Below, piece by piece: positions 1 through 18,938 of a stretch of 45,768 nt of DNA. Origin of the DNA: Candidatus Peribacteria bacterium (GTDB taxonomy: Bacteria; Patescibacteria; JAEDAM01; Absconditabacterales; Absconditicoccaceae). The DNA lies in contig JAITGP010000046.1 in the NCBI GenBank assembly GCA_031280545.1, positions 1 to 45,768 on the forward strand, written 5' to 3'. A program made the translations under genes and the position numbers. A model generated the notes under the pieces. That model searched no databases. It saw only the letters and a list, made by a program, of their open reading frames with translations, and was not told where the DNA came from. Numbering within the stretch: the stretch's first letter is position 1; every line of letters starts with the position of its first letter.

Positions 1-1857
1 AAAGATGGTAAAGATGCTTTATGAAGATTACAAGAATGAATTAGTGCTGGAACATTAACCAAAGAACATCGAGAGGAAGGAGAAAAAGTATGTAAAAATA
101 CTATAGATGATTTACAGGATAATTTTGATGAGGGAATTACGTATCTCGTATCTAGTGCAACTCATCAAGTATTTAATACTGAGGATAATAATATTCAAGA
201 GTTTTTGAAATATTCTGGATTAAATGATGTAAAAACGGAAATGGAGTTATCTTTGAATGACTATAAAAAGAAATTTGCTAGTGGTAGTATTACACCACAG
301 GAAGCAGAAGAGTTTAAGGACCTTTTGAATAGTTATTTTGTGATGAAAAAAGAAATCTTATTGGCGGCAAATGCTTTGCAAGATATGAAAGCAGAAAATA
401 GATCCGTTTGAGAAACGATTTTACAAACCCTTCATGCTACTGGAAAAGATTTCTGTACTCATCTAAAAAAATCTGCACAAGCTTTGGGTAGAGGAGATTT
501 TATTGGATCACGGGCTTGGATGACGCTCCCTTTAATTGCAGGAGGATATACATTATCGGCTATTGGGAAAAGAAAAGGTGTCAAACGATTGGATCAAGCA
601 GGAAGAATTATGAGGAAAGCAAATATTTTTAACGCAGGATTTGAGGCTGGTAAAAATATTTCCCGTCGCTTTTCAAAAGCAACTGCAATGCCAAATTGGA
701 TATTAAAGAGGACAAGATATAATATTCCCCATGGAGATGATTTATTCCTTCAAGATATACTGGAAGGTAAAATTTCTGGAAAAAGGATTGAAAAACTCTT
801 GAACGATAGCCCTAAAATACGGGAAACTGCTTCAGGTGGGAAAATTAAAACTCTTGAAAACTTTGTAAATAAATTACGACCATGAAAACCAGACGATGTA
901 AAAAAGGCATTGAGAACCCTTTGCATTGATAATGCAGAAATAAATCTTTTGGAAAATAAGAGTTTGAGAAATCTAATATTGGAGAATAATGCCACTTTAG
1001 GTGGTAAGGTGAAAAAGATCGTCAATGGGTACGAACTAAAAAATTACAGCCTTAAACAAAGTGTGGTAGATATAGTAAACGGTGATGAATTTAAAAAACT
1101 CTTATCCGTATCGGATGATCACAAAAAATTGTTGAAATGACTACTTGCACAGGGAGAATTTAAATCGTTGGATGAATTGAAGACCCTAGCGAAAAATATC
1201 CAAAACATTGATTTGACAGGAGTAGATGATATCAAGATCGGACAACTTGCAGAGGCTTTATCAAAAGAAATGTCAGCTTTCTGAGATACTGCTAAACTGA
1301 ATAATATAGTAGAAGGAGTAAAAAAGTGAGCTCTTGTTAATACTACTCCGGATGTGATAACTGAGGCTATGGAAGAAGTAGTTAAAAATCATTCATTGAC
1401 GAGAACGCTTGATGCTGAGTTAAATGCATTGAATGCAGAGAAAAAAGCATTAACGGATAATAACTTAAGTAAAAAAATAGCCAAGGAAATAGAATATATT
1501 GAAGAAATGAAAGGACAATTAAAAACCTTGAAAAATGTAGATGAATTAGATGCATTACAAATGTTGTGGACTCAAGCAAAACAATTTAAGAAAGGTCCTT
1601 GAGAAATGTTAGAGTTTTTGAGTGATGTAAAACATTTGATGGATCGTCCAGAACTAAGGCGTTTATCAAAAATAGAATGGGACAATTTAGATGCAATCTC
1701 CAGTTTGAGAACAGGTGCAAATGATGAAATCTTGGAAAGAGTGATTAAAGTAATGGATGATATTAAAGTAAAAAATCTGACTAAATTGGCAAATAATTGA
1801 TTTGAGGCAATGACTACAGCGTTTAAATTCTTAAAATCAATAGCAAAACTTACGTAA
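1..1857 (+). CDS. Large helical protein of unknown function, 5' end cut by window
   Basis: The frame is open from base 1 to a TAA at 1855-1857 when TGA is read as glycine; under the standard code it breaks into pieces at TGA codons (for example 409-411, 1138-1140, 1600-1602, 1798-1800). At least 618 residues are visible. The protein is lysine- and glutamate-rich and mostly helical, with long amphipathic stretches. One short hydrophobic segment near visible residues 170-190 (around AWMTLPLIAGGYTLSAIG) could touch or cross a membrane. I recognise no catalytic motif or named domain. The next gene follows after 21 bases and has the same style, so the two are probably co-transcribed. The function is unknown; an envelope or host-interaction role is only a guess from size, composition and neighbours. 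Confidence 0.8.
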
Positions 1858-1878
1858 TTTTATTCCTCTATTCTTGAT

Positions 1879-4800
1879 ATGCCAGAACAAACTGTAGAGC
1901 AACTTAAACAAGAGGTTGCCAATGAGTATCTAAAAAAATATAAGAAAGAGCTGGGGCGACTCCAATCTTTAGCACTTTATCCTATTGAAAAAGAAGTAAA
2001 AAATATTCTGTCTGGGAATAGCTCCCTCCCAGAAAAGTTTGATGAAATTCAGGAATTTAGTTGGTGGGGGAAAATTCTCGGCTTTATCTCCAAAAGTATG
2101 GCGACAGATTTATTGAAATTTATGAAGGAAAAAAGACTAGAAATAGAAAAAAGGAAAACTGAATCAGAATTAGTGGATTTGAAGAATGAAGTTGTGGGAG
2201 TTGCAGATAATGCTGTTGTCGACGGGGTACAAAGTTTAGAACACCAAGCAGAACAAGAAGTCTGAAAAAGAAGTGCCAAGGCTGGAATAGTTACTACGAC
2301 AGGAATTGCTGGAGCAGGAATTATTGATAATATTCGTGAAAGTAAATCTGCAAAAAACGTAGTGAAAGAAATAGGAAAAGAAAATATGGATGCGGTAGTA
2401 ACTATGACTAGAGAAAAAATTTTGAAATTAAACGAGGAAGCGAAGAAGGGGTTAGAAACTGCAAAAAGTAATCCTCGCTTGACGAAGAGGCAGATTAAAA
2501 ATATTGATAAAGCGATCCAAAAATTTGACGAACAGATGGGAAAAATAGGTGATGATGCGGTAGATGTGTATAATGCTTATATGAAACTAGGAGAGAGAAT
2601 GCCGAAAAAAGTATTACAAGGTATCGAAATGTTGGATCCCCAAAATGCGAAAAAGATTGCAAAAATAGCTGATCAGTTAGTAGGGAAAAATATTGATGAA
2701 ATGAAAGTAGTTTTGAATACTCATCATATTACAGGAGTTTCGGATGATGCTTTGGGGGCATTAGTTAAAATGGGTAGCAATACTGATGATTTTCTGGCAA
2801 TGACGAAGGTTTTATCTGCACCCGCTAAAGCTAAAAATGTGTTTCATTTGGTGAAGTCAGCATTTATTATTGATATTGCTTGTTTGGGATTTGATATTTG
2901 GGTATTTACAGAGACCTTAAATGAAGCTGACTTAATTGCTAAAGTCAATGAACTGAGAGCACAAAATAAGAAGAACCAAGCATGGACTCAATTGGCGATA
3001 GGAATCGCTTCCTTTGCTGTGGAACTTTGAATTATTATTACAGCTGCTTCTATCGGTAGTACAGCCTGACCAATAGGAACGGTAGTTGGGTTGGCAGTGG
3101 GAGCAATCACTGCAGCTGCTGCTACGGGAGTAGATGCTCTGTATTTTGATGTGCAGGATTTTTATACACAAAATAAAGAGGAGTATATTCGCCAACCTAG
3201 AGCTCAACTCAAAGAAGCGATTTTACAACATCTCCATAATAAAAAAGAGGGAAATCTTTCCTTGAATGAAAAAATTTGATCTCCTGAGCAATCTATCAAA
3301 GATATGAGTTTGAAGGAGGCTTGGGAATCAATCTTTTTCTTGGAGGCAGTGGATGATGAAAAAACTCAAACAGATTTTTCTCTTCTGTTGAGCTATAAAA
3401 TGAGTGGAAAATCAAGAAAAGAATTTATTTGATCCTTAGATGCAGATACTTACAAAACATTTGAAGAGCAGGAAAAAAAGCTGAATGAAACTATTGCTTT
3501 GAGGATGGAATATATCGAAAAATATTTAGGAGAGGGACAGATTATTGCAGGCTTGAAAAGTTCGCAAGGAATGTATTATCTTTCCCAGCTTTTGAGTCAA
3601 TCAAGTTTTTATGCTGAGAGAAAACAAGTGGGAAAATGGCAAGAACAAAAGAGTTTTAAAGAGAATGAAAAAGAGGCGAAACAAGAACTTTTAGAGAGTA
3701 TTCCAGAGGAGATACAAAAGAAATTAGAGAATATTTCTAAAAAAGATAAACATTTTCTGTATGAATTATATTATGGAGCCGCTTCCTATGCTCCTGCTCT
3801 TCAAAACGATGAAGATACAGAAACCGAAACAGAGCAACAACATAATCAGCATTTGAAACAAAATATTCAGTATCTAGAAAAGTATGTAAAAGCCTTAGAA
3901 GTAGGAAATCCTCGAGAAGAGCAATATAGGACGAATTTTGTTTATGGTAATTTGAATTACAACTACATTACAGCAATTTTAGAAAAAGATTTTGAAACCA
4001 CAGGATTTGCATATCAAACTTTTTCTTCAGAAACGGTAAAGACTATTTCTTATCATAACAGAGAAAGGAATAATGAACTTCCAATTTCTGACAAAGTTTC
4101 TCAAAATATTCTCTATAGACTGGCTACAGAGTTTTATGGATATACAGGACGAAATGATGCAATGGAATTGATGCAATATTTTAGCGAAGGAGAAGGACAT
4201 ATTCATGGACTGTATTATAAAGATGGACGATACATCAATAATGATCGGGCAGTAGATCAGAAATTTGATTTGACGTATTTAGAGGATAAAAACCTGTCTA
4301 ATAAGGAGGTCTCTCTACAAGTAGAAAAAATTGTGAAAACTATTTTATATGCCCCAATACAGAATGCACAAACTGGTCAAATTGTTTGATACTCCAGAAA
4401 ATCAATGATTGATACACCGACTGAAGCCATTGATACGTATCTGAATAATGAATTTGAAACCAGATTTAAAGCAATTTTGCAAGATGAACTTGGTATGAGA
4501 ACCACAGAGAAAAAACAAGAAATCAAAAATCAGATTTCAGATTTTGTTAAAACTTTTTCTAAGGAGGGGGGGTATGTAGAATTGCCATATTATCTTGTTA
4601 TTTCTGCTAAAAGGGCAGGACTTTGAGATTTAGAAAAAACTCAATTCTCTATGAAAAATGGAAAACTCGTTGCAGTGGGGCAAATACATGATTTGAGAGC
4701 AATTGGAGATTTGGAAGTAGAAAAAGAGTATGTAGAACAAGCTCGCGAAACCTTTACTCCTGAAGAAATGCAATACATCAATTTGGTTGAGTCTGCTCAT

Positions 4801-6069
4801 CAGCAAGTGGAAGCTTTGAGAAGTATTGAAGGGCGAGGATCTCGTGAAGATGAGTTGGATATTCCTGTGGAGATTGAACATGATATTTCTCAGCATTATA
4901 AAGATTGGAATACCTTAAAAGGTCGCTTGTTGTGCTATGATCCCAAGAAAGTTCAAACTGAGCTTGGTGAAAAGTATAAAGAGTATTACGAGTATTTTAA
5001 TTCATTGTATTTGGGAATTTTACTGTCATTAAATAGTTTTACTTGGGGAAATGATATTGATACGATGCAAGCTTTTCAAATGGTTGCTGCTAACCAACAG
5101 CTCTTTGATGAGAAAGGAAATCTAAAGAAAGACAAAAATGGAAAATTAGAAATGAAACGAGGTTGAACGGGTAATTGAAGTTGGATAGAAAAATTGTATA
5201 CTGCTCAAATTATAGAAAAAAAATATACTTACAACAAAATAGTATATGAAAAGGTCATAGGAGAGGATGGCGAGGAAAAAGAGACAGCAAAGACAATTGC
5301 TGTGGAAAAAACCATCAAGGACCTTTGGGAGTCTGGTGATAAAAATGAAGCGGAAGTAGCAAAACGATATTCTAATAAAATTATTACTGCTTTACTTGAA
5401 TCCTATCTTCTCCTTTCGAATGATAAAGGAAAAATTATCTGAATGTGGGACGGTCGAGATGGAAATACTACAGAAAAAGGTGCTTTTGGAGGTAAACCAA
5501 GTGATGAAAAGAAGTTTATGGAAAAGTTTTCTTTTCACTTGAAAAAACATGTTGCACAAAATCCTTTTACTTTGTCCAGTTTTACGCTTCCAGAGCAGTA
5601 TAAAACAGAAAGTGAACTTCAAATTCGTTCTTATACTCAAAGAGATAAAAAATCTGAACAGCTTTCTAAAGTAATACAAAAAACTATAGAGCAAACTTTA
5701 CCTAATGTGGAGTGGCAAGGAAAGAGAGGAAATATAAAATATCATCCTGAAGATTCTACTCTGGAAAGTCGATGAAAAAAAATTAAAGTTGAATTTGAAG
5801 GAGAAGATAAAATCAAAATTGCTGGATTCTCTCGTGGGTTGGATGTTCAATCTGGACTTTGGCTTCTGAATTTTATCAACTGGTTTTATTATACGTATAC
5901 AGAACATAAGGAAATAACCTATGAATATGAATGGAGCCGTGCATGATATAGAAAAGGACTTGTAAGAGATGGAACGGTACTTATTACAGGGAAAGACCTG
6001 AAAAAATATCTTACAAATCTGACAGATACAGAAATTGATCAAATCGCAGGATTGTTGTATAGTACCTAA
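1879..6069 (+). CDS. Giant (about 1396 aa) helical protein with a Gly/Ala-rich membrane segment
   Basis: This is one continuous frame from ATG 1879 to TAA 6067-6069 if about a dozen in-frame TGA codons are glycine. The first two thirds are charged and helix-rich with probable coiled coils. Near residues 330-420 lie two hydrophobic stretches, around SAFIIDIACLGFDIWVF and a small-residue run including IIITAASIGSTAGPIGTVVG followed by an alanine-rich tract; the latter looks like a glycine-zipper membrane or pore-forming segment. The C-terminal region is mixed charged and aromatic with no motif I recognise. There is no signal peptide and no Shine-Dalgarno; the leader before ATG is pyrimidine-rich. 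It sits 26 bases before a gene with a peptidase-like C-terminus. Large CPR proteins of this kind are often surface or attack proteins, but that is inference and the sequence proves no function. Confidence 0.82.
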
Positions 6070-6095
6070 TTCTTTACTTTTTTACCCCCCTCCCC

Positions 6096-7181
6096 ATGAG
6101 TAACATTAACGAATTTTACAATGAAACTACTACCAATATCGTAGAAAAAACTTTTGGTTTTTTTAAATCTCTCTTTAGGAAAGAAACCAGAGATCTGAAA
6201 GAGAACATAGAAAATGCTCCTAATGCTCAAGAGGTAGCTGATGTGGCTTTTGAGGACTTTAAAAACACTCTTTTTAAGAAAAAGACGATCGATCAAAATG
6301 GGAAAGAGAAGCAATTTTTCTCCGCTCAGCTTTTGGGGACGGTGAATTTTTTTGGAGATACGTTGCTGAAACCGATTTTGGAAAATGAATATAAGGAGAA
6401 TACGGATATTCTGGAAAAAATTACTGATGAAATAAAAAAGAATGCTATGAATTCTTTGATGAATTCAAATATTTCAGAAGAGGAAAAAAAAGCCTTTTGG
6501 GAGGAATTTGAAAATTATTGTCAACACGTGGGTGGAATCAAGACTAAAGAGGATCTACAGGTACTAAAAGATGGAAACGCTGAAGTGAGCCAACAATATG
6601 AAGCGAGCGTGTCTGAGGAATTAGAACAAGAGATTGGAACCAAAGTTAGCACCGACAAACAGCGTTATATCAATGAACAGAAAAAACTGAATACGACTTG
6701 GACAGAGGAAGCCTTGCTGGTCCCATGAAGAATTGGAACCTTGCCGAAGCCTTTTCCTGTGAAGTCAGAACCGTTTGAAAGAAGTAATAAAGGGACTACA
6801 CTTTGTGCGAAGACCGCTTGGAGTAATGCTCAGAATTTTGGAATCAATCTTCCTAGAGGGAATGCGTATGATGCAGCTAGAGAAACTCCGATTTCCTCCG
6901 CTTTTAAAAAGACTGTGGGAAGTGTAGATCAACCAAAAAAAATCTCCACGGACTTCTCAAAATTTGCTTCTGATAGTAATTTTGCAGATATTTATACTAC
7001 TTCTAAATCGCAGTATGGGCATAGAGCAATCGCGTTTTTAAATCAAAGCGATCATCAGCGATATGTGTTAGATCCTTATTCAAATAAACAAAAAACTGAT
7101 CCTATTCCTTTGATGGAATACCAAGAAAAGAGGGGAGTGATTCAGGCAAACTTTTATAAGTCTGAGTATTATGTAGCTTAA
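6096..7181 (+). CDS. Helical protein with papain-like (Cys-His-Asp) C-terminal domain
   Basis: 361 residues with a single in-frame TGA (6726-6728) read as glycine at residue 211, at the junction of two regions. Residues 1-205 are charged and helical. Residues about 215-361 look like a compact NlpC/P60- or transglutaminase-type cysteine hydrolase: a cysteine opens a helix (TTLCAKTAWSNA, Cys237), a histidine starts a strand (YGHRAIAF, His309) and an aspartate follows in the next strand (YVLDPY, Asp326). That order and spacing fit a Cys-His-Asp triad, but I match it by motif only. The start at 6096 follows the leader ACCCCCCTCCCC, which contains no Shine-Dalgarno. It is the third gene of the series 1-7181 and is probably transcribed with the two before it. 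It could be a peptidoglycan or isopeptide hydrolase; the substrate is unknown. Confidence 0.75.
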
Positions 7182-7292: not shown

Positions 7293-7320
7293 TTGATATA
7301 TATATACAAATTATTATACT
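7293..7320 (+). promoter_or_regulatory. Promoter of the ubiquitin-like operon
   Basis: TTGATA at 7293-7298 and TATACT at 7315-7320 are separated by 16 bp, the spacing seen at most other promoters in this window. Transcription would start near 7327 and leave a leader of about 130 bases before the first gene. A second, weaker candidate (TTGACT 7210-7215, TATAAT 7235-7240, 19-bp spacer) lies upstream. The whole gap 7182-7458 is very AT-rich and holds no convincing gene. Confidence 0.6.
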
Positions 7321-7327
7321 GCCAATG

Positions 7328-7342
7328 ATCACTGAAAGTGAT
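7328..7342. promoter_or_regulatory. Inverted repeat at the start of the ubiquitin-like transcript
   Basis: ATCACT-GAA-AGTGAT is a perfect 6-bp inverted repeat with a 3-base centre, starting 8 bases after the -10 box. The position suits a repressor operator or a hairpin at the 5' end of the RNA. Other accessory genes in the window have different palindromes at the same position. Confidence 0.45.
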
Positions 7343-7458
7343 GATGTGTTATTTAACATTAATGTAAATAATTTTTGTTGGTATATTGTATATCTACAAT
7401 CTTTTACAGCAAGGAAAATATAAAGTAAAACGAAATATAAACTAAAAATCAAGGTAAT

Positions 7459-9189
7459 ATGGAACGAGTAAAAATTAAATCAATTCCTCAGATGATTTCC
7501 GTTAGCCAAGAGGGCTGTCGTTTATTGTCGGGTGAAACGATTTCTGCTATTCAAGAAATCTTTTCTTGTGTAGGGCTGAATGTTCGTGTGGTCTCTCATG
7601 ACCATCCGATACATATACAGCCTAGGTGTGATGGAAATATTCACCTCTTTTTGAATGCAAGTTGCAAGGAGCAACGTTTGGAGGAGAGATTACCACTATC
7701 TTTATGGGGTTTTCCACTACAAGCATCTCAACGAAAATCTTGTCTTCCTACTGGAGGAGAGGTGATTTGTTATGAAGATGTTGCTTTGGCGGAAATTGTG
7801 GAAGGTTTTCATGTTTATATTCTCTTTGATTTGTTTTCGGGGGATGTGAATGTTGCTAATCAGATTTTAAAAGAAATTTTGATACAAGCAATGCTGTTTA
7901 TCTATCCAGATGGAATTAAAGAATTAGAAGCATCTACAATCTCTTTGGAACAATTCTTAAATGAGGAAATGAAGGACGAAGTACTTTCACATCTTAAAGA
8001 GAGTTATTGTACTCATTATCTCACAGAAACAAAAAAGTATTTATCTGGGCATAGAATTTCTTTGGATGATCTTCAAAAAGAAAAAGAGAAAGTCCAAGAA
8101 AAAGAGCGTCAGGTTTCTCTGCTTGTGCAGAGAACACAGGGAGATTTATCTTCAGATTTAGAACTTTTGGGACAGGAATTTGAAAATTTGTTTTTTGCTC
8201 CTAATATTTTGGATGTTACTTTTCGTGAGGATGAGGTTTTGGAGGTCTATACTGATACTTTGTACTGTACGGATCCTAGGACTAACATTCTGCATGAAAT
8301 TGGTCGTTTCAAAATAGTCTTTGATAAAAAACAGATTAGGGAAGATAATCACAAGGAAGTTCTCTGGTTTAATCAGACCCAGAAGGTACGTGCATGGGAT
8401 GAGAGATTGATGATGGCTCCTCATGTATTTTCTGATGGGCATGCTTGTCTAGGAAATATGGAGAAAGCATTTGCAGATTTACTTTCTAATAGAGAGTACT
8501 TTGCTGCTATGCTTATGGCTATTAAATTTATTGAGAGTGTTAATGTTAGCGATATTGCTGGCAAATGTATTAATCATTGGCCACAAGCCTCTTTACCGGT
8601 ATCCCCCCCTCAACAACGCACCTATGATGGATTGTCTGAGTTGGATAGGCAGCAATATCAGAAGATGAAAAAGCTCTATATTCAGGTTACTTCCCAAAAA
8701 TTTTTGAGAGAACAAGAAGATATCAAAAAACAATTGGTGAACGCGGAAAAGCTTCTCAATAAACTGAAGACTAATTATGTTTCTCTTACAAAACAATCTT
8801 TTGTTCAGGAACATAAGGATAATTTAGTGCAGTTGTTTTCTTCTAAATTTGATGCATTGCTTTCTTTACCACAAGTCCATAGAATCGCTCCTACAGAGAC
8901 AGGTTTTGAGGTATTTACTAAAGAATTGCAGTTTGTGTATCAAGGGAGACAGCTCAATAGAGGAAGATTTAGGATTTCCATATATGGTGAGAATTTTACT
9001 ATTTCTCATATCATTGGAGAACAAACATTGTTTGGTATCAATAATCTTTCTTTTGAACCAGTTGTGCTTCCTGACACGGAGGAGTTGAAGGTATTACAAA
9101 GTAAGATTTCTCAACTCTTTTTGCATTATGAGCATGATAGGATTATAAAATTATTGTGGAAGTATCTACAATTAAGTATTAACAAATAA
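7459..9189 (+). CDS. E2-like (ubiquitin-conjugating fold) protein with duplicated domain
   Basis: 576 residues with no in-frame TGA. After an N-terminal region (1 to about 170) of unknown fold there is a coiled coil (about 205-235), then an E2/RWD-like domain (about 240-375). Its signature is APHVFSDGHACLG at residues 320-332, resembling the E2 active-site pattern of an HPN-type turn followed eight residues later by Cys-Leu. Here His322 is followed by the candidate catalytic Cys330. A second coiled coil (about 405-455) precedes a second copy of the strand region (463-515) that aligns with 240-293, including GRFKIVF versus GRFRISI; this copy has no catalytic cysteine. It is the first gene of an operon with JAB, E1 and ubiquitin-like genes, which strongly supports a conjugation role. 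It would carry the activated ubiquitin-like protein as a thioester. A weak AAGG lies about 8 bases before ATG. Confidence 0.75.
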   Translation: MERVKIKSIPQMISVSQEGCRLLSGETISAIQEIFSCVGLNVRVVSHDHPIHIQPRCDGNIHLFLNASCKEQRLEERLPLSLWGFPLQASQRKSCLPTGGEVICYEDVALAEIVEGFHVYILFDLFSGDVNVANQILKEILIQAMLFIYPDGIKELEASTISLEQFLNEEMKDEVLSHLKESYCTHYLTETKKYLSGHRISLDDLQKEKEKVQEKERQVSLLVQRTQGDLSSDLELLGQEFENLFFAPNILDVTFREDEVLEVYTDTLYCTDPRTNILHEIGRFKIVFDKKQIREDNHKEVLWFNQTQKVRAWDERLMMAPHVFSDGHACLGNMEKAFADLLSNREYFAAMLMAIKFIESVNVSDIAGKCINHWPQASLPVSPPQQRTYDGLSELDRQQYQKMKKLYIQVTSQKFLREQEDIKKQLVNAEKLLNKLKTNYVSLTKQSFVQEHKDNLVQLFSSKFDALLSLPQVHRIAPTETGFEVFTKELQFVYQGRQLNRGRFRISIYGENFTISHIIGEQTLFGINNLSFEPVVLPDTEELKVLQSKISQLFLHYEHDRIIKLLWKYLQLSINK

Positions 9190-9200
9190 AAAAATTGTGT

Positions 9201-10133
9201 ATGTCAAAAAAACACTTTTTGAGTGGTGGGACTACCCCACAGAAGAAAAACTGGTGGGACATTGGAAGAAAAAGCTTCTCTTGTTCTACCTTTAGAAGAG
9301 GCTCAGAGCAGCCTGTCTGGAGTGTCTCTCCTAAAGTATTCTTTACTAAAGATGCATTGGATAGCATTCAGGCTATTGTAGGACATGCTGATCAAGAAGT
9401 CGGCTTCTTGGGTGTTGTACACCAAGGAGATGGAATTCAGCTACCTCGGGAACACTTTGTCATTGAAGAAATTCACTTGCCAAAGCAACGAGCGTCTGTA
9501 ACAAATTGTACTTTGACTGCTGATGGGGTTGCTGACTATTATATAGAGCTCTCTCAGACTGATGAAGGTATAGAAAAAGTGAATGCAATGTTCTTTTGGG
9601 GACATTCTCATCATACGATGGGTGTATTTGCTTCAGCTCAGGATGAAAAGCAGTTTAAAGAATTTGCTGAAGGAACTGACTTTTACATTAGAGGAATCTT
9701 CAATAAAGCAGGAGATATTAATTTATCTATTACTTTGAAGACCGTTTCTTTGGGAATTCTTCGTATGGATAATGTCCCCTGGGGGGTTGTGGATGCTTCT
9801 CTTTCGGAGGAATGCAAATCGTATTGGGAAAAAGAGATTGAGGAAAAAGTTGAAAGAGTATCCTATTATCCTAAGGGTATTGGATTTACTGCTTATCAGC
9901 AACCCAAAGTCTTTCCAAGAGGATATGCGTATGGACAAGATGACTATGTACCTCGCGAGGAAAGAGAAATAGTTGAACCCGTTAATAGTACAGCTCCTAA
10001 AATTGAGGAAGATGTAGATGAATTTGAGAGAACTCTTGAGTCAAATCCTGATCCCTCACCAGACTTAATCACTCAGAAAGATCCAACATCACCAAAAAAG
10101 CGAACTTTATTTGGTTTAGATATTGGTATTTAA
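9201..10133 (+). CDS. JAMM/JAB-domain metallopeptidase (deubiquitinase-like)
   Basis: 310 residues from ATG 9201; a TTG six bases upstream is a less likely start. The complete zinc-peptidase signature of the MPN/JAB family is present: Glu66 (EVGFLG), then His135-Ser-His137, seven residues, Ser145 and Asp148 (HSHHTMGVFASAQD). Residues about 45-215 form the JAB domain. The N-terminal 45 residues are basic and aromatic. The last 80 residues are acidic and proline-rich, probably a flexible tail. Enzymes of this family cleave after glycine at the C-terminus of ubiquitin-like proteins, either to mature a precursor or to remove it from targets. The gene lies 11 bases after the E2-like gene and 16 bases before the E1-like gene, so it belongs to the same transcript. 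It contains no UGA codon. Confidence 0.93.
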   Translation: MSKKHFLSGGTTPQKKNWWDIGRKSFSCSTFRRGSEQPVWSVSPKVFFTKDALDSIQAIVGHADQEVGFLGVVHQGDGIQLPREHFVIEEIHLPKQRASVTNCTLTADGVADYYIELSQTDEGIEKVNAMFFWGHSHHTMGVFASAQDEKQFKEFAEGTDFYIRGIFNKAGDINLSITLKTVSLGILRMDNVPWGVVDASLSEECKSYWEKEIEEKVERVSYYPKGIGFTAYQQPKVFPRGYAYGQDDYVPREEREIVEPVNSTAPKIEEDVDEFERTLESNPDPSPDLITQKDPTSPKKRTLFGLDIGI

Positions 10134-10149
10134 AACATAGGATGTGTAT

Positions 10150-10863
10150 ATGGACAAGAGTAAAAGAATTGTTACGATACGACATCAAAGTGTCTTTGAT
10201 GCTGGTGTCTTTGGAAACCTTAGGGTAGACGTGATTGGATGTGGTGCAACGGGATCTCAAATTGCAATGCAACTTGCAAAGTTAGGTATTAAGAATCTGC
10301 ATTTATGGGATTTCGATATTGTTGAGGCTCATAACTGTGCAAATCAGCTTTTTTATCTGGATGATGTAGATAAGCAAAAGGTGGAAGCTTTGGGTGAACA
10401 TATCCAAAGAGCTACTGGACTGTCTCCTACACTCCATAATGAAAGAGTGGATGGTAGTCAAGAATTGGGTGATGTGGTATTTTTGCTTACTGATACGATG
10501 TCTTCTCGTAAAGAAATTTGGGAGAATGGCATTGCTGATTCTTTGACCATTAAATTAATGATTGAGACTCGTATGGGAGTGGATGATGGAAAAATTTATA
10601 CCATCAATCCTCAGGATATAGCAGAAGGAGAATTTTGGGAATCCACTTTGTGTGAAGATACCAAAACCCTTCCTTCGGCTTGTGGTGGAAAAACTTCTGT
10701 AGGTCCTACTGCTTCCCTTATTTGTGGATGTGCAGTTTGGAGTTTTATACAGTGGTTTGCGTATTTCCAAAAGGAAAAAAATGCAGAAAAACCTGCGAAA
10801 CAACTTTTTTTCGGGATTCGTCCTGAAATGTCGGTTATTACCGATAGTGATTTATTAGTATAA
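10150..10863 (+). CDS. ThiF/MoeB/E1-like adenylating enzyme
   Basis: 237 residues. I choose ATG 10150 because AGGA sits 7 bases upstream; an in-frame GTG at 10144 is the alternative. The Rossmann nucleotide-binding loop is at residues 30-35 (GCGATG), the acidic strand end at Asp54/Asp56 (LWDFD), and the E1-type Asn-Asn-Gln element at Asn62/Asn65/Gln66. Candidate catalytic cysteines are Cys168 and Cys178, the latter in SACGGKTSVGPT. The CxxC zinc pairs found in MoeB/ThiF are absent. The family adenylates the C-terminal glycine of a ubiquitin-like protein and, in E1 enzymes, forms a thioester. The ubiquitin-like gene follows 26 bases downstream. It is shorter than eukaryotic E1 and similar in size to bacterial ThiF-type enzymes. 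Confidence 0.93.
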   Translation: MDKSKRIVTIRHQSVFDAGVFGNLRVDVIGCGATGSQIAMQLAKLGIKNLHLWDFDIVEAHNCANQLFYLDDVDKQKVEALGEHIQRATGLSPTLHNERVDGSQELGDVVFLLTDTMSSRKEIWENGIADSLTIKLMIETRMGVDDGKIYTINPQDIAEGEFWESTLCEDTKTLPSACGGKTSVGPTASLICGCAVWSFIQWFAYFQKEKNAEKPAKQLFFGIRPEMSVITDSDLLV

Positions 10864-10889
10864 GTATTCATTAAACAAATTATTCAAGT

Positions 10890-11204
10890 ATGGAAGAATT
10901 AGATCGTACAGGCGAAGGCCAAGTGCAAATCGTAGAAACGGTAGAAGTAGTTCCCGTAAAGTTGGGCTTTACGCCAAAGCCCGCAAATGTTAAAATTCCA
11001 GTGGGTCGTTATGATATCCCTGTTGGAGTGATGTTGTCTGTATTTTTACAGCAAATGGGAGTTGATGTATCGCAGTACTCTTGTATTACTCTGCATCGTC
11101 CTGGAGGAGTGACGGAAAGATTCAATTTGAATCAAATTCAAAATCTTTCTCTTCAACGAGATGATATGGTAATGTTTTCCAGAGAAATCTCTGGGAATAA
11201 TTAA
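10890..11204 (+). CDS. Ubiquitin-like (beta-grasp) protein, probable conjugation modifier
   Basis: 104 residues. After an acidic 20-residue tail the pattern is strand-turn-strand (VKLGF... VKIPVGRYDIPV), helix (VMLSVFLQQMGV), strands (CITLHRPGG, ERFNL), then LSLQRDDMVMFSREISGNN. The element L-x-L-x-x-x-D-x-V before the end is typical of ThiS/MoaD/ubiquitin-like proteins. The chain ends Ser-Gly-Asn-Asn rather than Gly-Gly, so a mature form might end at Gly102 after removal of two asparagines, possibly by the JAB enzyme encoded two genes upstream. The family call rests on pattern and operon context, since similarity by eye is weak. It is the last gene of the operon and is followed by a terminator. 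Confidence 0.62.
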   Translation: MEELDRTGEGQVQIVETVEVVPVKLGFTPKPANVKIPVGRYDIPVGVMLSVFLQQMGVDVSQYSCITLHRPGGVTERFNLNQIQNLSLQRDDMVMFSREISGNN

Positions 11205-11218
11205 TCTCTTATTTCATT

Positions 11219-11254
11219 AAGGACATCTTTTTTAAGGTGTCCTTTTTGTTTTTT
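11219..11254 (+). terminator. Rho-independent terminator of the ubiquitin-like operon
   Basis: AAGGACATC (11219-11227) pairs with GGTGTCCTT (11236-11244), a 9-bp stem with one wobble pair, followed by a T-rich run to about 11254. It closes the operon 14 bases after its last stop codon. Confidence 0.9.
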
Positions 11255-11256
11255 AT

Positions 11257-12207
11257 TTAATCCAATTCCCAAACCTTATAGCTCACGTTTTCTCTCGGAG
11301 CAGCCTTTCCTTCGGCAATATAACGGCGAAATCGGGTTCTCTGCTTTTTAGCTAAATGGTGGGTATTTCTTTTCAAGAGTTCTTCCATTTTTCCTTTATC
11401 ATATTCTCCTTGCAGGTAGCCTATGACTTCTTTGTATCCAATTCCCTGCATAGACTGGAGTGTAGGAGAGTAGCCTTGATCCAGTAAGTCCTGTACTTCG
11501 TCAATGAGTCAGCTTTTTATCATTTCTTTTATTCTGGTATTGATGAGTCTATTTCCTTCTTCTTTCTCTCTTCGAAGTCCAAGCATCAAAAGGGGGTGTT
11601 TTACGGGTTGCTGTAAGAAATTTCCGGTTTTGGTGGCCCCAGTAGTATGATAAATTTCCAAAGCTCTAATGAGGTATCTCGTAGAATTGGGGTGAAGCTT
11701 TTGGGCTTCTTCGGGGTCAATTTTTATAAGCTCTTCATAGAGAAATCAGGGTTTCTCTTTTTCTTTCTTTTGTAGTTCTTCTCTGAATAGGTAGTCAGGA
11801 GCAGCTTCTGGCATGGTGAAATTCTTGTACACCGTATCAATATACAGCCCTGTCCCTCCGACGATGAAAGGGACTTTTTTTCTTGCCAAAATTGCTTCTA
11901 CAGTGGCTTCGCTGTCCTCTTTTCGCTGTCCGGCGGTGTAGGTTTCGTTAGGATTGACAATGTCGATTTGGTGGTGCGGGATTTTAGCTCTGATTTCTTT
12001 ACTAATTTTATCGGTTCAGATATTCATAGCTCTAAAAATCTGTCTACTATCTGCGGAAATAATTTCTGTTGGGAAAAAATCACTGAGTAAGACAGAAAGC
12101 TTGCTTTTCCCTGTGGCTGTGGCTCATCGAATGATGATGGTCCCGTCGGGGTTCGTTTGCAAAAATTGGTCAACGGTATGTTGGGCGTCAGTGAGGATTC
12201 CTTCCAT
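11257..12207 (-). CDS. miaA: tRNA dimethylallyltransferase
   Basis: 316 residues from ATG at 12205-12207 to TAA at 11257-11259. MiaA transfers a dimethylallyl group to N6 of A37 in tRNAs that read codons starting with U, next to the anticodon. Visible motifs are the P-loop GATATGKS (28-35), whose first glycine is a TGA codon, SADSRQ (51-56) that binds substrate, MNIGTDK with another TGA glycine at residue 64, PHHQIDI, and GGTGLYID. Standard-code reading would break the gene in several places. It converges on the ubiquitin-like operon, with the terminator at 11219-11254 between them. The upstream side contains a structured repeat. Length is normal for the family. Confidence 0.95.
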
Positions 12208-13674: not shown

Positions 13675-15354
13675 ATGGCAAATCGAACAGAACTCGCAGA
13701 TTTACTCTTTCCTGAGGTGACGGAAACGATAGAGGATTTATTGGTGAAATATCCAGAACGTGCTGAAAAAACTGTCCTTCGTTTTTCTCCTAGTCCTACG
13801 GGATTTTTCCATTTTGGAAATCTCTATACTGCACTCTTTGATTGGAAATATACTTCGCAACAACAGGGAGTTTTTTATCTTAGAATAGAAGATACGGATC
13901 AATTGAGGGAAGTGAAAGGAGCAGTGACGTCACTTCTCAATTCTTTATGAAAATTCTGAATTACTATTCACGAATGACCTGTCTGACCAAATGGGAGCGA
14001 AATTGGGAATTATGGACCGTATTTCCAATCTCAGAGAGCAGGACTTTATAAAGTGTTTATCAAGCATTTACTCGCTCAAGGATTAGCCTATCCGTGTCGA
14101 ATGACGGAAGAAGAATTGAATACCATTCGTGATGAGCAGATGAAAGCCAAAAAAACTCCAGGGATTTATGGAGAGTATTCCAAATATAGAACTTACACTC
14201 CCGATGAACTTATCGCAAGGTATCACGAAGCAGGAGATAGTTTTCCGGTGATCAGGTTTCGTTCCCATGGAGATAGTACAAAGAAAGTTTTGTTTACTGA
14301 TGAAATTAGGGGAACGATTTCTATGATGGATAATTATAATGATATTGTGATTCTCAAAGGAGATGGTTTGCCGACCTATCATTTGGCACATATTGTAGAT
14401 GATACGTTGATGAGGACGACGCTGGTTTCCAGAGGCGATGAATGGTTGCCGTCTGTGCCGTTGCACCTTCAGCTTTTTGGAGCTTTCAATTTGCCTGCAC
14501 CGAAGTATGCTCATCTTGCACCGGTGTGTAAAATGGACGAAGGAAAGAAAAGAAAGCTGAGTAAAAGGCACGATCCCGAGGCGAATGTGGCGTTTTTGTT
14601 TGAGAAAGGGTATAGTGTACAGGGGATTATTGAGTACATTATGACTCTTCTCAATTCGAATTTCGAGGACTGGAGAAGAGATAACCCGGATACTGACTTG
14701 TCAGACTTTTCTCTTTCGTTTACTACGATGAATGTGGCGTGACCGCTCTTCGATGAGGTGAAATTGCAATGGATCAATAATGGGTACTTATCGAAGATTT
14801 CTACGGAGGAGTTGTTTGCTCAGACCTTAGTTCGAGCGAAGGAGTATGCTCCTGAGTTTGCTTCTTTGCTTCAGTCTGATGAAGCGTATGCGAAAGCGGC
14901 TATCAATATTGAGAGGCATACGGAGAAAGACCCGAAAAGGTTTACCTTGTATAGTGATGTGCAGAACCAGATTTTGTTCTTCTTTGATGAGGAATGGGAA
15001 AAGGGGGAAGAAAGCAGAAAGACATTGTTAGCAGAAAATGAAAACTTCGGGAAATTACAAGATTTTGTACGTGAATACGCGGAAATAGTGGATTTGGAGA
15101 CGGATGATGTGTTGGTGTGGTTTGAGCAGTTGAAGCAGATAGGAAAAAAGTATGGATATGCAACCAGTAATGCAGAATTTAAAGAAGGAGGGTATATTGG
15201 GAAAACGGGAGATTTGGCGATGTTTCTTCGTATTCAGCTGTGTAATGCAAAGCAGACTCCTGACCTCTTTTCTGTGATGAAAGTGATGGGGAAGGAGAGA
15301 GTGGTGAGGAGATTAGGGGAGTATCTAGAGTTTTCTCAAGCATGGAAATGGTAG
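13675..15354 (+). CDS. gltX: Glutamyl-tRNA synthetase
   Basis: 559 residues from ATG 13675. It charges tRNA-Glu (and in many bacteria lacking GlnRS also tRNA-Gln) with glutamate. The class I HIGH element appears as HFGN at residues 46-49 in FSPSPTGFFHFGNL, and the KMSKS element as KLSKR at 294-298. Four in-frame TGA codons between 13948 and 13992 fall within 15 codons and restore the expected GluRS sequence (EGPVGPNG, NYGPYFQSQR). Another TGA at 14740-14742 precedes the anticodon-binding half. An out-of-frame ATG lies just upstream at 13668. Length is slightly above the family average because of the C-terminal half. The gene is complete and should be functional. Confidence 0.96.
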
Positions 15355-15423
15355 AGAAGGTACTTGTCAGAAGGTATGCGAAATTTTGCAAGAAATTTTT
15401 GTGTATTAGAAAACTTGTTGTAA

Positions 15424-15672
15424 AAAATCTCTCTAATAAAGATTATTTATAACAAAAAATATCCACTCGTGGGTTCAGAGGGAAGAGCCGGTCCTCATAA
15501 GATTCAGGGAATTGGTGCAGGATTTGTACCTGAAGTTTTGGATATTCAGCTTTATAAGCAAGTGATCACCGTGTCTAACTTGCAATATGCAAAACAACAC
15601 CCAAATAAACAAATTGTTACTATTTTCCCAGATACAGGGGAGAGATATCTCTCTACAGCATTGTTTGAATAG
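15424..15672 (+). pseudogene. Cysteine synthase (cysK) remnant
   Basis: The reading frame after the stop at 15421 has no ATG and encodes a short piece of O-acetylserine sulfhydrylase: [19 protein letters not shown] is the conserved substrate/PLP-phosphate region and [19 protein letters not shown] is the conserved C-terminus. The whole N-terminal two thirds, including the PLP lysine, is missing. The segment that should connect the two blocks (with the GISSGA-type motif) is also deleted, since VITVSN runs directly into [11 protein letters not shown]. The only possible start inside is a GTG at 15469. I read it as a decayed gene retained between gltX and rpoD; a short repurposed protein of 67 residues is the less likely alternative. 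Confidence 0.75.
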
Positions 15673-15686
15673 TATAATATTGGATG

Positions 15687-15717
15687 CCCGTAGGTATTAT
15701 ATACGGGTATTTTTTTA
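15687..15717 (+). terminator. Rho-independent terminator
   Basis: CCCGTA (15687-15692) pairs with TACGGG (15702-15707) across a 9-base loop, followed by a T-rich run. It separates the cysK remnant from rpoD. Confidence 0.75.
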
Positions 15718-15734
15718 ATATATCTAAACTTAGC

Positions 15735-15762
15735 TTGACTTTATTTGTAACATCACTATAAG
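15735..15762 (+). promoter_or_regulatory. Promoter of rpoD
   Basis: TTGACT (15735-15740), 16-bp spacer, TATAAG (15757-15762), about 37 bases before the rpoD start. No palindrome follows the -10 box. Confidence 0.6.
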
Positions 15763-15799
15763 TTAAAGTAATATTTATTTTTTCTATCTTTTGTTGATC

Positions 15800-16702
15800 A
15801 TGAGACAATTAAAAATAACTCCTTCAATTACCCGTCGTGAGGATGACTCTTTTAATAAATATTTACTGGAGATCGCTAAATTCCCAATACCTTCTCCTGA
15901 AGAAGAGGTCGCTTTGGCAGAGGCAAGAGATCGTGGAGATCTGAGTGCAATACAAACCTTGACTCGTGGTAATCTGCGTTTTGTGGTTTCTGTAGCGAAA
16001 CAGTATCAAAATCAAGGCCTTCCTTTACCTGACCTCATCAATGAGGGGAACCTTGGTTTGATTAAAGCAGCTGAAAAATTTGATCAGACGCGTGGGTTTA
16101 AATTTATTTCGTATGCGGTTTGGTGGGTTAGACAATCAATTCTTCAGGCATTGTCTGAAAAAAAAGGTACGATTCGTTTACCTTGAAATCAAGTAGGAAG
16201 GTTGAACAAAATTAGAAAATTTTCTGAAAAATTTGAATTGGAACAGGAAAGAAAACCTTCTGCCGAGGAAATTGCTAAAGAATTAGAGTTGGAGCTTTCA
16301 GAGGTAGTTAATGCTTTATCTATTTCAAGAAAAATTTCCTCTCTGGATACTTCTTTTGATCCTACCGATGATGGTGCAGCTCCTTTATCAGATTTAGTAC
16401 CGGATATTGATGCTCAGACTGATAAACCTTTAGATGAAACTGATTTATCTTATGTTATTGAGGATACTTTGAAGGGATTAGTGAAAATTAAAAAATTAAA
16501 TCCTAGAGGTAACGACTGATTAACCGCTAAGGAGGCTGATATTATCAGAATGTCTTTTGGTCTAAAAGGGGAAGAAATGAGTTTAGAAGAGATTGCAAAA
16601 ACCTATGATCTTACGAGAGAACGTGTGAGGCAGATCAAAGAAAAAGGTATCAGATATCTGAAGAAATCTGGAGCCTTTGAGCAGTTTAGGGAATATTTAT
16701 AG
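15800..16702 (+). CDS. rpoD: RNA polymerase sigma factor, sigma-70 family (RpoD-like)
   Basis: 300 residues from ATG 15800; TTG codons at 15791 and 15794 are less likely starts. The protein directs RNA polymerase to promoters. Region 1.2 ([21 protein letters not shown]), region 2 ([38 protein letters not shown], for -10 recognition), region 3 and region 4.2 ([21 protein letters not shown], the helix-turn-helix for -35 recognition) are in order. TGA glycines occur at 16184-16186 in TIRLPGNQVG and at 16517-16519. Region 1.1 is absent, giving a short primary-type sigma factor. It is probably the factor that reads the uniform TTGAAA-N16-TATACT promoters seen here, though other sigma factors may exist elsewhere. 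It ends only 4 bases from the convergent clpP gene, with no terminator between them. Confidence 0.94.
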
Positions 16703-16706
16703 GAAA

Positions 16707-17291
16707 TTACTTAATAATTTTATCAATAAGTCCGTATTCTAAAGCTTCTTCGCTAGACATTCGATTATTTCTTTCCATGTCGGCGAGGGCTTTTTCGTAT
16801 TTTTGTCCAGAATTCTTTGCGATGATTTCGGTCAGAATTTTTTTAATTTTCATCATTTCTTCTGCTTCAATCTGGATATCTGTCGCTTGTCCGCTGATTC
16901 CCCCTCCAGAGATTAAAGGCTGATGAATCATGATTTTACTATGAGGAAGTGCGAATCTTTTTCCTTTCGTTCCAGCATTTAATAGTACTGCTCCCATAGA
17001 GGCAGCAAGCCCTACACATACGGTGGAAATGTCACATTTTACGTGTTGCATGGTGTCATAAAGTGCAAGTCCACTGTACACTTCTCCACCAGGGCAATTA
17101 ACATACATGGTGATATCTTTGCTTGGGTCCTGCTTTTCGAGAAAAAGAATCTGTGCGATGACCGTATTTACAAAATGAGATTCGATTTGATCACCGAGAA
17201 AGATAATTCTATCTTCTAAAAGTCTGGAATAGATGTCGTACACTCTTTCTCCATTTTTAGTTTTTTCAATGACGGTAGGGATAAGAACCAT
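16707..17291 (-). CDS. clpP: ATP-dependent Clp protease proteolytic subunit
   Basis: 194 residues starting at ATG 17289-17291 ([11 protein letters not shown]). The frame extends to an ATG at 17360, but that codon overlaps the -35 box of the promoter and the family start matches 17291. ClpP forms a barrel of two seven-subunit rings that degrades proteins fed by ClpX or ClpA/C in the cytoplasm. The catalytic triad is Ser98 (GLAASMGA), His123 (IMIHQP) and Asp171 (ALADMERN). The heptamer and specificity elements ([28 protein letters not shown]) are intact. No UGA codon is used. It faces rpoD tail to tail. Confidence 0.97.
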
Positions 17292-17332
17292 TAGGTTTGA
17301 TAGTAAAGGGTAAAAATTCTTTATTTTTTGTA

Positions 17333-17360
17333 TTTTTATTCTTTTATCATTGAATTTCAA
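17333..17360 (-). promoter_or_regulatory. Promoter of clpP
   Basis: On the minus strand TTGAAA (17355-17360) and TAAAAA (17333-17338) are separated by 16 bp. Transcription would start near 17326, downstream of the ATG at 17360 and upstream of the ATG at 17291, which decides the start. A plus-strand TTGAAA at 17362-17367 lies back to back and may serve the divergent gene at 17436. Confidence 0.6.
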
Positions 17361-17435
17361 CTTGAAATTACATATGAAAATCCTAATCCTTAGGGTAATC
17401 TAATATCGTTTTTTTATCCTCTTACTTTATGTGGC

Positions 17436-18938
17436 ATGCAATTCCCTCCTTCTCTTAAATTTCTTTCTCTGCTTTCTGCAGTAGTCATTGCTAGTTCTTC
17501 TTTGTATGGAACGGCATGAGCAGCTACACTTACCGCTAGTGTCACTTCTGCTGAGAACTCTACCACTGCTTCTACTTCTTCCCTTCAAACTTCTTTGGAT
17601 GATACTAAGGAAGGACTGTTGAAATCTTTGGATGAAACGCTGGTTCGTCTCCAAAAGCTGTATGATGGGAAAATGAAGGATTTAGTGGAAAGTGCTCTTT
17701 TTAAAGCGGTGGAATGTTTATGATTTTTGGGTACTAATCAGCTTTCTTTAAATCTTTCTTCCTTAAAAGGGGAGTATCAGAGGGCAGTTTTGGAAAAATA
17801 TGTGGAACTTTCCATGGATATCAAGAGATTGACGGTGGGATTGTCTATAGATGAAAAGGGGATTAAGGAATCTATTTCAGACTTTCAGAAAACGTTTACT
17901 GCGAAGTTTGTAATGATTGAGGAGACTTATGAAGACAGCTACAAGGCGTTGCAAACTGCTTATACGAATGCTTTGGAAAAAAATAAAGACTTGGTGCAAA
18001 ATCTTGCCATAAAAATCCAAAAGGTGATCTCTATACAAGAGAAATATTCAGAATTACAGCAAGCAGAAGCTACACTCTATGCTAGTATAGCAGAAAAAAG
18101 TCAGCTTTCAAAAATGCTTCAGCTTTCTAAATATTCTGTGATTGCTACTTTACAAAAGGAATTGGAAAATCAGATTAAAAATGCTCAATCTTCTAATCCT
18201 GAAATTAGTAAAGAAAAGCTGATTGCAGAAAAAGACGCTTTATTAGCGGAACTCAAAAGGGAATCTGATGCTCAGATTAATGTATTCTTTAAATCTTCTA
18301 CCAAGACTGCTACCTATACTAAAACCTTAAGTGAAGCAGAAGTCTTCTTATCCCAGTATACTACTGAAAAAACTTATCAATGTGGAGTAATTATCTCTGC
18401 TAATCGAGAAAAATCCTATGATGGTTTGGCTGATCGCTTGAAAACGTTAATCCAAGATCTCCAAAAAGCTACTGAAAAACTTACAGGATATGATGAAAAT
18501 CAAATAAGATCTTTGGAAACTGCGAGTATTACTACCTTTAAGACCTTTTCTACAAATGCTTTCTCTAAGAAAAAAGCATTATTCCGTGTGTATGTGGCAC
18601 AATTAATTGCTGCAAATCAAAACACTGGAACAGAGACTCCTCCTACTGAGACGCCTCCTACACCTAGTACTCCCGTTTCTTGGACTCCCTACGTTTTTAC
18701 AAAGACCTACAATAAGGGGATGTATGCTTTAGAGTTGAAATATTTGCAAGAATTCCTGACAGCTCAAGGACTCTATAATGGAACAATCAATGGACTCTAT
18801 GATGCGAAAACTATCGAAGCAGTGTATCATTATCAGTTGCAAGAAGGAGTAGTAAGTGGAAAAGAGGCAAATAAAGCTGCTTATGGTTGGATGGGACCTG
18901 CTACGAGAAATGCTGTAAATAAAAAGATGAATCCATAG
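17436..18938 (+). CDS. Secreted coiled-coil protein with C-terminal peptidoglycan-binding domain
   Basis: 500 residues from ATG 17436; TGA glycines at 17517-17519 and 17721-17723 hide the N-terminus under the standard code. A signal peptide is evident (MQFPPSLKFLSLLSAVVIASSS, cleavage probably around 25-30). Residues about 60-390 are helical with coiled-coil character (long lysine/glutamate/glutamine stretches). A threonine-proline linker (about 391-410) leads to a C-terminal PG_binding_1-type domain (about 415-498) with the pattern GMYALELKYLQEFLTAQGLYNG, TINGLYDAKTIEAVYHYQ and GWMGPATRNAVNK. It should sit in the cell envelope attached to peptidoglycan and may brace the neighbouring pilus-type apparatus, which begins 42 bases downstream. 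No catalytic domain is visible. Confidence 0.85.

Follow-up and report, generated by a model that had tools for sequence, protein, structure and literature searches.

A putative phage-derived ubiquitin-like conjugation cassette in a bacterial chromosome with a recoded UGA codon

Can a row of four genes on a bacterial chromosome with a recoded UGA codon constitute a whole ubiquitin-like conjugation pathway, and where would such a pathway have come from? The question is raised by a 45,768-nucleotide stretch of Candidatus Peribacteria bacterium (assembly GCA_031280545.1, contig JAITGP010000046.1; hereafter the window, meaning this stretch at its full length), where four open reading frames (ORFs) follow each other on the forward strand between positions 7459 and 11204. 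They encode an E2-like protein, a JAB metallopeptidase, an E1-type adenylating enzyme and a ubiquitin-like protein (Ubl), all of them closed by TAA stop codons and, with ATG starts, separated by gaps of 11, 16 and 26 nucleotides. Judging by their conserved residues, the four genes are best read as a complete E1-E2-Ubl-JAB pathway that is probably active. What is new is the setting of this gene set: most of its copies were found in viral contigs, in several gene orders, many with replication genes and some with packaging genes close by. On balance, we favour the reading of the window cassette as an active, phage-derived pathway of protein tagging.

A recurrent gene set and its viral setting

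The relatives of the cassette were collected with both the E2 and the E1 proteins. In a protein search with the E2, whose scoring was limited to the 7994 top candidates by shared words, eight database proteins matched (query included). The same E2 alignment detected 11 loci, nine of them distinct, in 2.9 million viral contigs, and three contigs in 84,980 prokaryote genomes (species), which count as two because two of them apparently hold the same sequence from one sample; a tblastn search of named phages and plasmids with one of the E2 relatives (P0006) gave no match. From the E1 alignment scan, the best 80 of the 125 viral contigs encoding relatives were taken. The locus set amounts to 103 loci, with an E1 in 102 of them (all except L003) and 66 distinct by their E1 core. 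Matches to all four families (E ≤ 0.01, within 6.5 kb) were found in 61 of these 66 loci, with a marginal E2 match in five of the 61, while the others carry either JAB, E1 and Ubl (4/66) or E1 alone (1/66). This joint occurrence, together with JAB metal residues that are invariant in 13 rows, indicates a four-gene set beyond chance, and the E2-JAB-E1-Ubl row described in an earlier note on this DNA is borne out in both its ORFs and its motifs. The order of the genes is E2-E2-JAB-E1-Ubl in 17 loci, Ubl-E1-JAB-E2 in 14, E2-JAB-E1-Ubl as in the window in 11, Ubl-E2-JAB-E1 in nine and some other in 15.

The contigs are classed as viral for 65 of the 66 distinct E1 loci, and viral contigs with E1 relatives reach 208 kb. 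Terminase matches were detected in four of 11 viral records, above the Pfam cut-off in G004 and below it in G003, G008 and G009; the terminase site of G003 also matches phrog_2 (1.4e-23), which we take to be the terminase large subunit. As G008 and G009 share the same cassette, these records stand for three distinct phages. A terminase family adjoins the cassette in 11/66 loci (PF03237 with E 9.2e-21 in the representative, L051, and BLAST clustering for the others); searches of the viral records for portal families were negative, that for Portal_T4 lacking a positive control. Because of their terminase genes, some of the loci are tailed-phage genomes, so that some carriers of the cassette are tailed phages, the remainder being viral by the IMG/VR classification. 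In 51/66 loci, at least one of eight families (helicase, PolA, PolA-type exonuclease, VapE-like, DnaB, AAA_24, SbcC and calcineurin-like phosphoesterase), whose role in replication or recombination is assumed, lies near the cassette. Seven of the viral records also supplied 17 control stretches, each 16 kb long, and none of the eight was found there, as against six of the seven cassette loci of those records, a result that describes a stable address and not an unbiased enrichment, because the families were picked for recurring near the cassette. Three reverse-strand genes (median lengths of 696, 247 and 225 residues) also recur as a block just downstream of the cassette in 14-15 loci, L011 (positions 14822-18329, reverse strand) and those syntenic with it; the three of L011 have no PHROG match, and the 704-residue representative has no Pfam match.

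E1 relatives are also present in named phages, namely Flavobacterium Fpv phages, Xanthomonas PhiXhv, Erwinia Ep032 and crAss-like phages, and three records were inspected. In Flavobacterium phage Fpv1 (positions 5022-6627), the E1 relative is annotated as thiamine biosynthesis and adjoins a protein with a JAB motif. The same annotation is found in Xanthomonas phage PhiXhv-12 (positions 3238-6612), where the E1 relative adjoins an 892-residue protein with the motif HPHM...LCLG, whose match to the E2 profile is not significant (E 0.16). In the human-faecal phage contig MT835544.1 (Bacteriophage sp.), a JAB (2.1e-31) is followed by an E1 (1.8e-35) at positions 5054-6663, with a weak Ubl-like ORF (E 0.015) at 3173-3409, upstream of the pair; none of the three records holds a convincing Ubl, this being the best match. 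No phage-encoded E1-E2-JAB-Ubl cassette was found in literature titles and abstract starts, a scope outside which most subscription papers and preprints fall. In the accessible portion of Iyer 2006 (PMC1779556), the only phage genes treated are tail genes that encode JAB and Ub-like domains, and a 2026 phage paper, in the portion available, places the thiF of a Xanthomonas phage among cofactor-synthesis genes.

The window itself is a stretch of bacterial chromosome with GltX, MetG, FtsH, ClpP, a release factor, a sigma factor, a type II/IV secretion ATPase and related genes. By its sequence, the code that fits it is table 25 (Gracilibacteria/SR1), because its coverage by frames of at least 150 codons rises from 0.58 (table 11) to 0.92 with UGA read through, and because UGA codons of FtsH and GltX face glycine. 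Both UGAs of FtsH are opposite Gly in both PDB alignments printed, and of the five UGA positions of GltX that the alignments cover, Gly stands opposite two (4gri) or three (1j09) and Trp or Cys opposite none, in agreement with the glycine reading proposed before. The cassette contains no UGA beside 76 GGN codons, as compared to 84 beside 690 in the 33 other window genes (Fisher p 4.1e-4; chance of none 1.6e-4), 10 of which are likewise free of UGA. An E1 tree of 73 rows places the window in an eight-row clade with seven viral rows (support 96/94), nearest to L022 with weaker support (87/78); viral rows dominate this tree because the E1 scan covered viral contigs. Owing to this clade and to the lack of UGA, a capture of the cassette from a phage-type element seems probable. 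The window would then be, apparently, a rare chromosomal case. The sole non-viral locus among the 66 (L001), a contig of a bacterial metagenome-assembled genome, may be a second chromosomal copy, since two of its flanking genes are AAA_14/DUF4143 ATPases. The idea of a recoded phage as donor was also considered and is unsupported, because TGA serves the phage sisters as a stop codon: in L022, the coverage gain with recoding is small (0.42 to 0.48) and two of 11 long frames end in TGA, which also stops 61/280 cassette-family ORFs in the related loci.

The four proteins and a model of tagging

The E1 (10150..10863, forward strand; 237 residues from ATG, or 239 from a possible GTG start at 10144) is the only cassette protein with a credible library match (PF00899, E 2.3e-18, 66.7 bits for a cut-off of 28.1), whereas for the E2, JAB and Ubl of the window Pfam, PADLOC, NCBIfam and PHROGs gave none. 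Its assignment as a ThiF/E1 enzyme with GCGATG is thus confirmed. The E1 has the GxGxxG and the conserved acidic residues of a ThiF domain and shows invariant columns across 11 aligned rows, and the Cys of its SACG motif (codon 10681-10683), which the family profile aligns with a Cys of Escherichia coli ThiF (1zud), is invariant in 11/11. The nearest PDB entries to the family profile are MccB, PaaA and ThiF, and the window E1 also matches PHROG families of unknown function.

The JAB/JAMM metallopeptidase (9201..10133, forward strand; 310 residues from ATG, or 312 from a possible TTG start at 9195) carries the full E...H-S-H-x7-S-x2-D signature claimed for it, with E66, H135-S-H137, x7, S145, x2 and D148 (numbering from ATG), and these five residues (E66, H135, H137, S145 and D148) are invariant in 13/13 aligned rows. 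The strict H-x-H-x7-S-x2-D motif is found in 62/68 ORFs of the family; of the six without it, three are cut or split and three show another spacing. Prok-JAB (PF14464) is detected in 6/13 family members (best E 0.0012) and not in the window protein itself. When the JAB profile was compared with PDB, a weak match to COP9 signalosome subunit 5 (E 0.83) was obtained; matches to WD-40-type chains were taken as chance and rejected. A second, divergent JAB (630-683 residues) with an E1 lies some 5-8 kb downstream of the main cassette in L004/L005 (17735-20373), L017 (13641-16372) and L020 (13576-16136).

The E2 protein (7459..9189, forward strand, 576 residues) comprises an N-terminal family domain (residues ~23-150), long helices, the E2 core (residues 230-384, 8146..8610) and a second E2-like domain devoid of catalytic Cys (residues 449-571, 8803..9171; 22.9 bits with the same E2 profile, aligned stretch SFEPVVLPDTEELKV), in keeping with the large two-domain architecture proposed for it. 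The core bears the active-site-like motif A-P-H-x7-C-L-G, seen as APHVFSDGHACLG, with Cys330 at codon 8446-8448, and, with this E2-type P-H-x7-C motif, is tentatively predicted to adopt an E2 fold. The catalytic Cys is kept in all 62 sets (window included) and the aligned P-H before it in 56/62, the exceptions being L053, L079, L080, L085, L090 and L093. The human UBE2W, a eukaryotic stand-alone E2, shares with this family the stretch HPHV-x-x-G-x-x-CL at its catalytic Cys (13 residues, E 0.22), whereas most E2s have an Asn at the position of its His. A dead partner is not what the second E2 represents in general, because the Cys is kept in 17/18 loci with a separate second E2, and it is lacking only in L006 and in the fused domain of the window. 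An E2 relative (P0005), from another sample, is 75% identical and has the same C-terminal domain.

The Ubl (10890..11204, forward strand, 104 residues) is predicted by structural modelling to have a beta-grasp fold, as the earlier note had suggested, with a core at residues ~20-97 forming a single Ubl unit and a tail ending in ...EISGNN. Compared with PDB, the Ubl profile, to which the window row contributes, comes closest to the established protein modifier SAMP2 (E 4.6e-5), and the predicted structure is nearest to MoaD and ThiS. The S-G-N-N tail of the window (11190..11201, forward strand) matches the [K]-G-N end of the family: taking the best Ubl per locus, 34/66 end exactly in Gly-Asn and 26/66 in Gly-Asn plus 1-24 residues, with five others and one locus with none. 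The Gly-Asn tail is thus present in 60/66 loci, or in 51/57 without the nine loci from which the Ubl profile was built with units cut at Gly-Asn. Three Gly-Ala ends are among the exceptions. Ubls of about two-unit length make up 18/65, and L007 has three near-identical tandem units, each with a KGN end. An additional Ubl-like protein of 221-245 residues, ending in VKGA or VQGA, was observed in L004 and L016.

From this pattern, we read the last residue of the tag as Asn, with small residues tolerated, after trimming by the JAB. The set is therefore predicted to activate the Gly-Asn end of a small protein and to attach it to target proteins. The pathway would start with the JAB, which would remove the residues beyond the first Asn (a single Asn in the window Ubl) and would later take the tag off. 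The E1 would adenylate the trimmed tail and load it on the conserved Cys of SACG, from which the tail would be transferred to Cys330 of the E2. Finally, the E2 would join the tail to an amine of the target, putatively aided by its second, Cys-less E2-like domain as a built-in partner, in the way that E2 variants act as partners in eukaryotes. The weakest step of the model concerns its use: in phages, the cassette, placed near replication genes, would have an early role and modify proteins of the host or of the phage, whereas the copy kept on the chromosome of the UGA-recoding bacterium would most likely act against competing phages. A protein-tagging system, possibly for defence or against a host cell, had been proposed before; this proposal is partly supported, with the conserved catalytic residues and the co-occurrence in 61/66 loci speaking for the tagging.

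Known systems and rival readings

The PRTRC cassette of mobile elements also combines genes for E2-like, JAB and ThiF proteins. The window E1, however, scores 34 bits against the PRTRC_ThiF cut-off of 144.75, and no ParB was detected among 29 neighbours scanned, which together with no cGAS or effector gene being recognised nearby agrees with the lack of ParB-related and effector genes noted earlier. Other known systems were compared as they appear in the portions of the articles available. The nearest in anatomy is Bil, whose operon has one gene each for Ubl, E2, JAB and E1 (PMC11354881), although by its description, the basis of this comparison, it differs from the window in the E2-JAB-E1-Ubl order, in the fusion of the E2 to a second E2-like domain and in a tag that is processed to Gly, whereas the window encodes SGNN. 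Types 6a-6e of Iyer have E1, E2-like, JAB and Ub-like genes together (PMC1779556), and in type 6e the Ub units number one to three and the E2-like domain is inactive; its JAB is mostly fused to the E1, in contrast to the separate ORFs and the E1 of 237-239 residues of the window, and the Ubl of type 6d ends in a highly conserved Gly, with a helical protein alongside, unlike the Gly-Asn tail found here. Type II CBASS, through Cap2 and Cap3, shares the E1, E2 and JAB chemistry and a tag end other than Gly-Gly (PMC10097602), but Cap2 joins E1 and E2 in one protein and the tag is cGAS, whereas in the window E1 and E2 have genes of their own, the Ubl is a dedicated one, and a scan of 29 neighbours revealed no cGAS-like gene; PADLOC matches of the window E1 are partial ones to E1-E2 models. 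Bub is a diverged bacterial Ubl conjugation system (PMC13373217), and the E1 of Citrobacter BubCD, within a 458-residue chain that sets it apart, is weakly related in sequence (E 0.0025). Since the anatomy is nearest to that of Bil, and Iyer 6d/6e, CBASS, Bub and PRTRC differ in fusions, tag or partners, the cassette would, by analogy, work like a ubiquitin-like conjugation system.

This likeness leads to the view that the cassette is a member of the ISG15-like anti-phage system Bil and that the phage copies are Bil operons picked up by phages, which we consider unlikely. The letters of the four Bil genes, Ubl (A), E2 (B), JAB (C) and E1 (D), would, if they follow the gene order, correspond to the Ubl-E2-JAB-E1 of 9/66 loci, of which the window order is a rotation, and the two Ubl domains of BilA recall the 18/65 Ubls of about two-unit length, though not the single unit of the window; BilA is, however, processed to a C-terminal Gly (PMC11354881), against the Gly-Asn of 60/66 loci. 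PADLOC models match none of the E2, JAB or Ubl (E ≤ 1), in a library where the presence of Bil models is unconfirmed. The Asn itself could be a mere recognition residue in a conjugation system whose JAB cuts between Gly and Asn and leaves a plain Gly as the reactive end. Gly ends are the rule in known Ubls. The cGAS of CBASS ends in Gly or Ala (PMC10097602). We hold a cut between Gly and Asn to be doubtful given that 34/65 Ubls stop exactly at Asn, that Asn is constant while the residues beyond it vary, and that the three Gly-Ala ends look as if the last residue itself were reactive.

That the cassette serves to carry sulfur or to modify peptides, as do ThiS-ThiF, MoaD-MoeB or MccB, and not to tag proteins, would account for the nearest structures of the E1 profile and the Ubl model, and is highly improbable in view of the E2-like protein with its Cys and the JAB that accompany the E1 in 61/66 loci, of a Ubl end that is not Gly-Gly, and of the absence of any recognised sulfurtransferase or cofactor gene among the 29 window neighbours scanned, except for a NifU-like protein 23 kb off. 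As for a decaying capture with no function, the loss of Cys from the second E2-like domain could be its trace; yet the four frames are open and UGA-free, the catalytic residues are kept, a terminator stands at the end of the cassette, and the same C-terminal domain recurs in the 75%-identical E2 of another sample, which makes decay scarcely credible. A phage-derived tagging pathway thus remains the favoured reading. Its fuller version, advanced tentatively and with a chance that we put somewhat below even, is that large tailed phages own a complete Ubl pathway, with a tag joined via a C-terminal Asn after Gly and used early beside the replication genes, and that one such pathway was captured by the UGA-recoding bacterium and is now a cellular system.

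In the available portions of the papers, the bacterial Ubl systems Bil, Bub and CBASS are known mainly as cellular anti-phage defence (PMC11354881, PMC13373217, PMC10097602). If the pathway described here is active, phages would tag proteins themselves and ubiquitin-style tagging would be a tool of many bacterial viruses; Bil and other defence systems may have parts in common with this viral toolkit, or may descend from it. Moreover, a Gly-Asn end would be unusual for a ubiquitin-like tag and would offer a signature for mass spectrometry, and the window cassette should be expressible unchanged in E. coli, as it has no in-frame UGA.

Expression signals and neighbouring genes

The single promoter-terminator unit attributed to the cassette holds at its 3′ end. 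A strong intrinsic terminator at 11219..11244 (forward strand), with an 11-pair stem, a 4-base loop and a T-rich tail (TTTGTTTTTT), closes the four genes. The possible sigma-70-like promoter, TTGATA-16-TATACT at 7293..7320 (forward strand; 10/12 matches, 138 nucleotides 5′ of the first start codon), is statistically unsupported, since the 11 promoter-like sites of the stretch are no excess over the mean of 13.2 in shuffles. The cassette is flanked by a gene at 6096-7181 and by an IPP-transferase gene at 11257-12207, and no convincing flanking repeats marking an insertion were found around it.

Immediately upstream of the cassette, three genes of 550, 1396 and 361 residues (205-7181, forward strand) use UGA and have no Pfam match (E ≤ 0.001). 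The same holds for the Pfam search of a 702-residue gene at 29235-31343 (reverse strand), which is the longest listed gene without an in-frame UGA. At 42408-44414 (reverse strand), the window encodes an OLD-like AAA plus TOPRIM protein (PF13304, PF13175, PF20469), a type often tied to phage defence.

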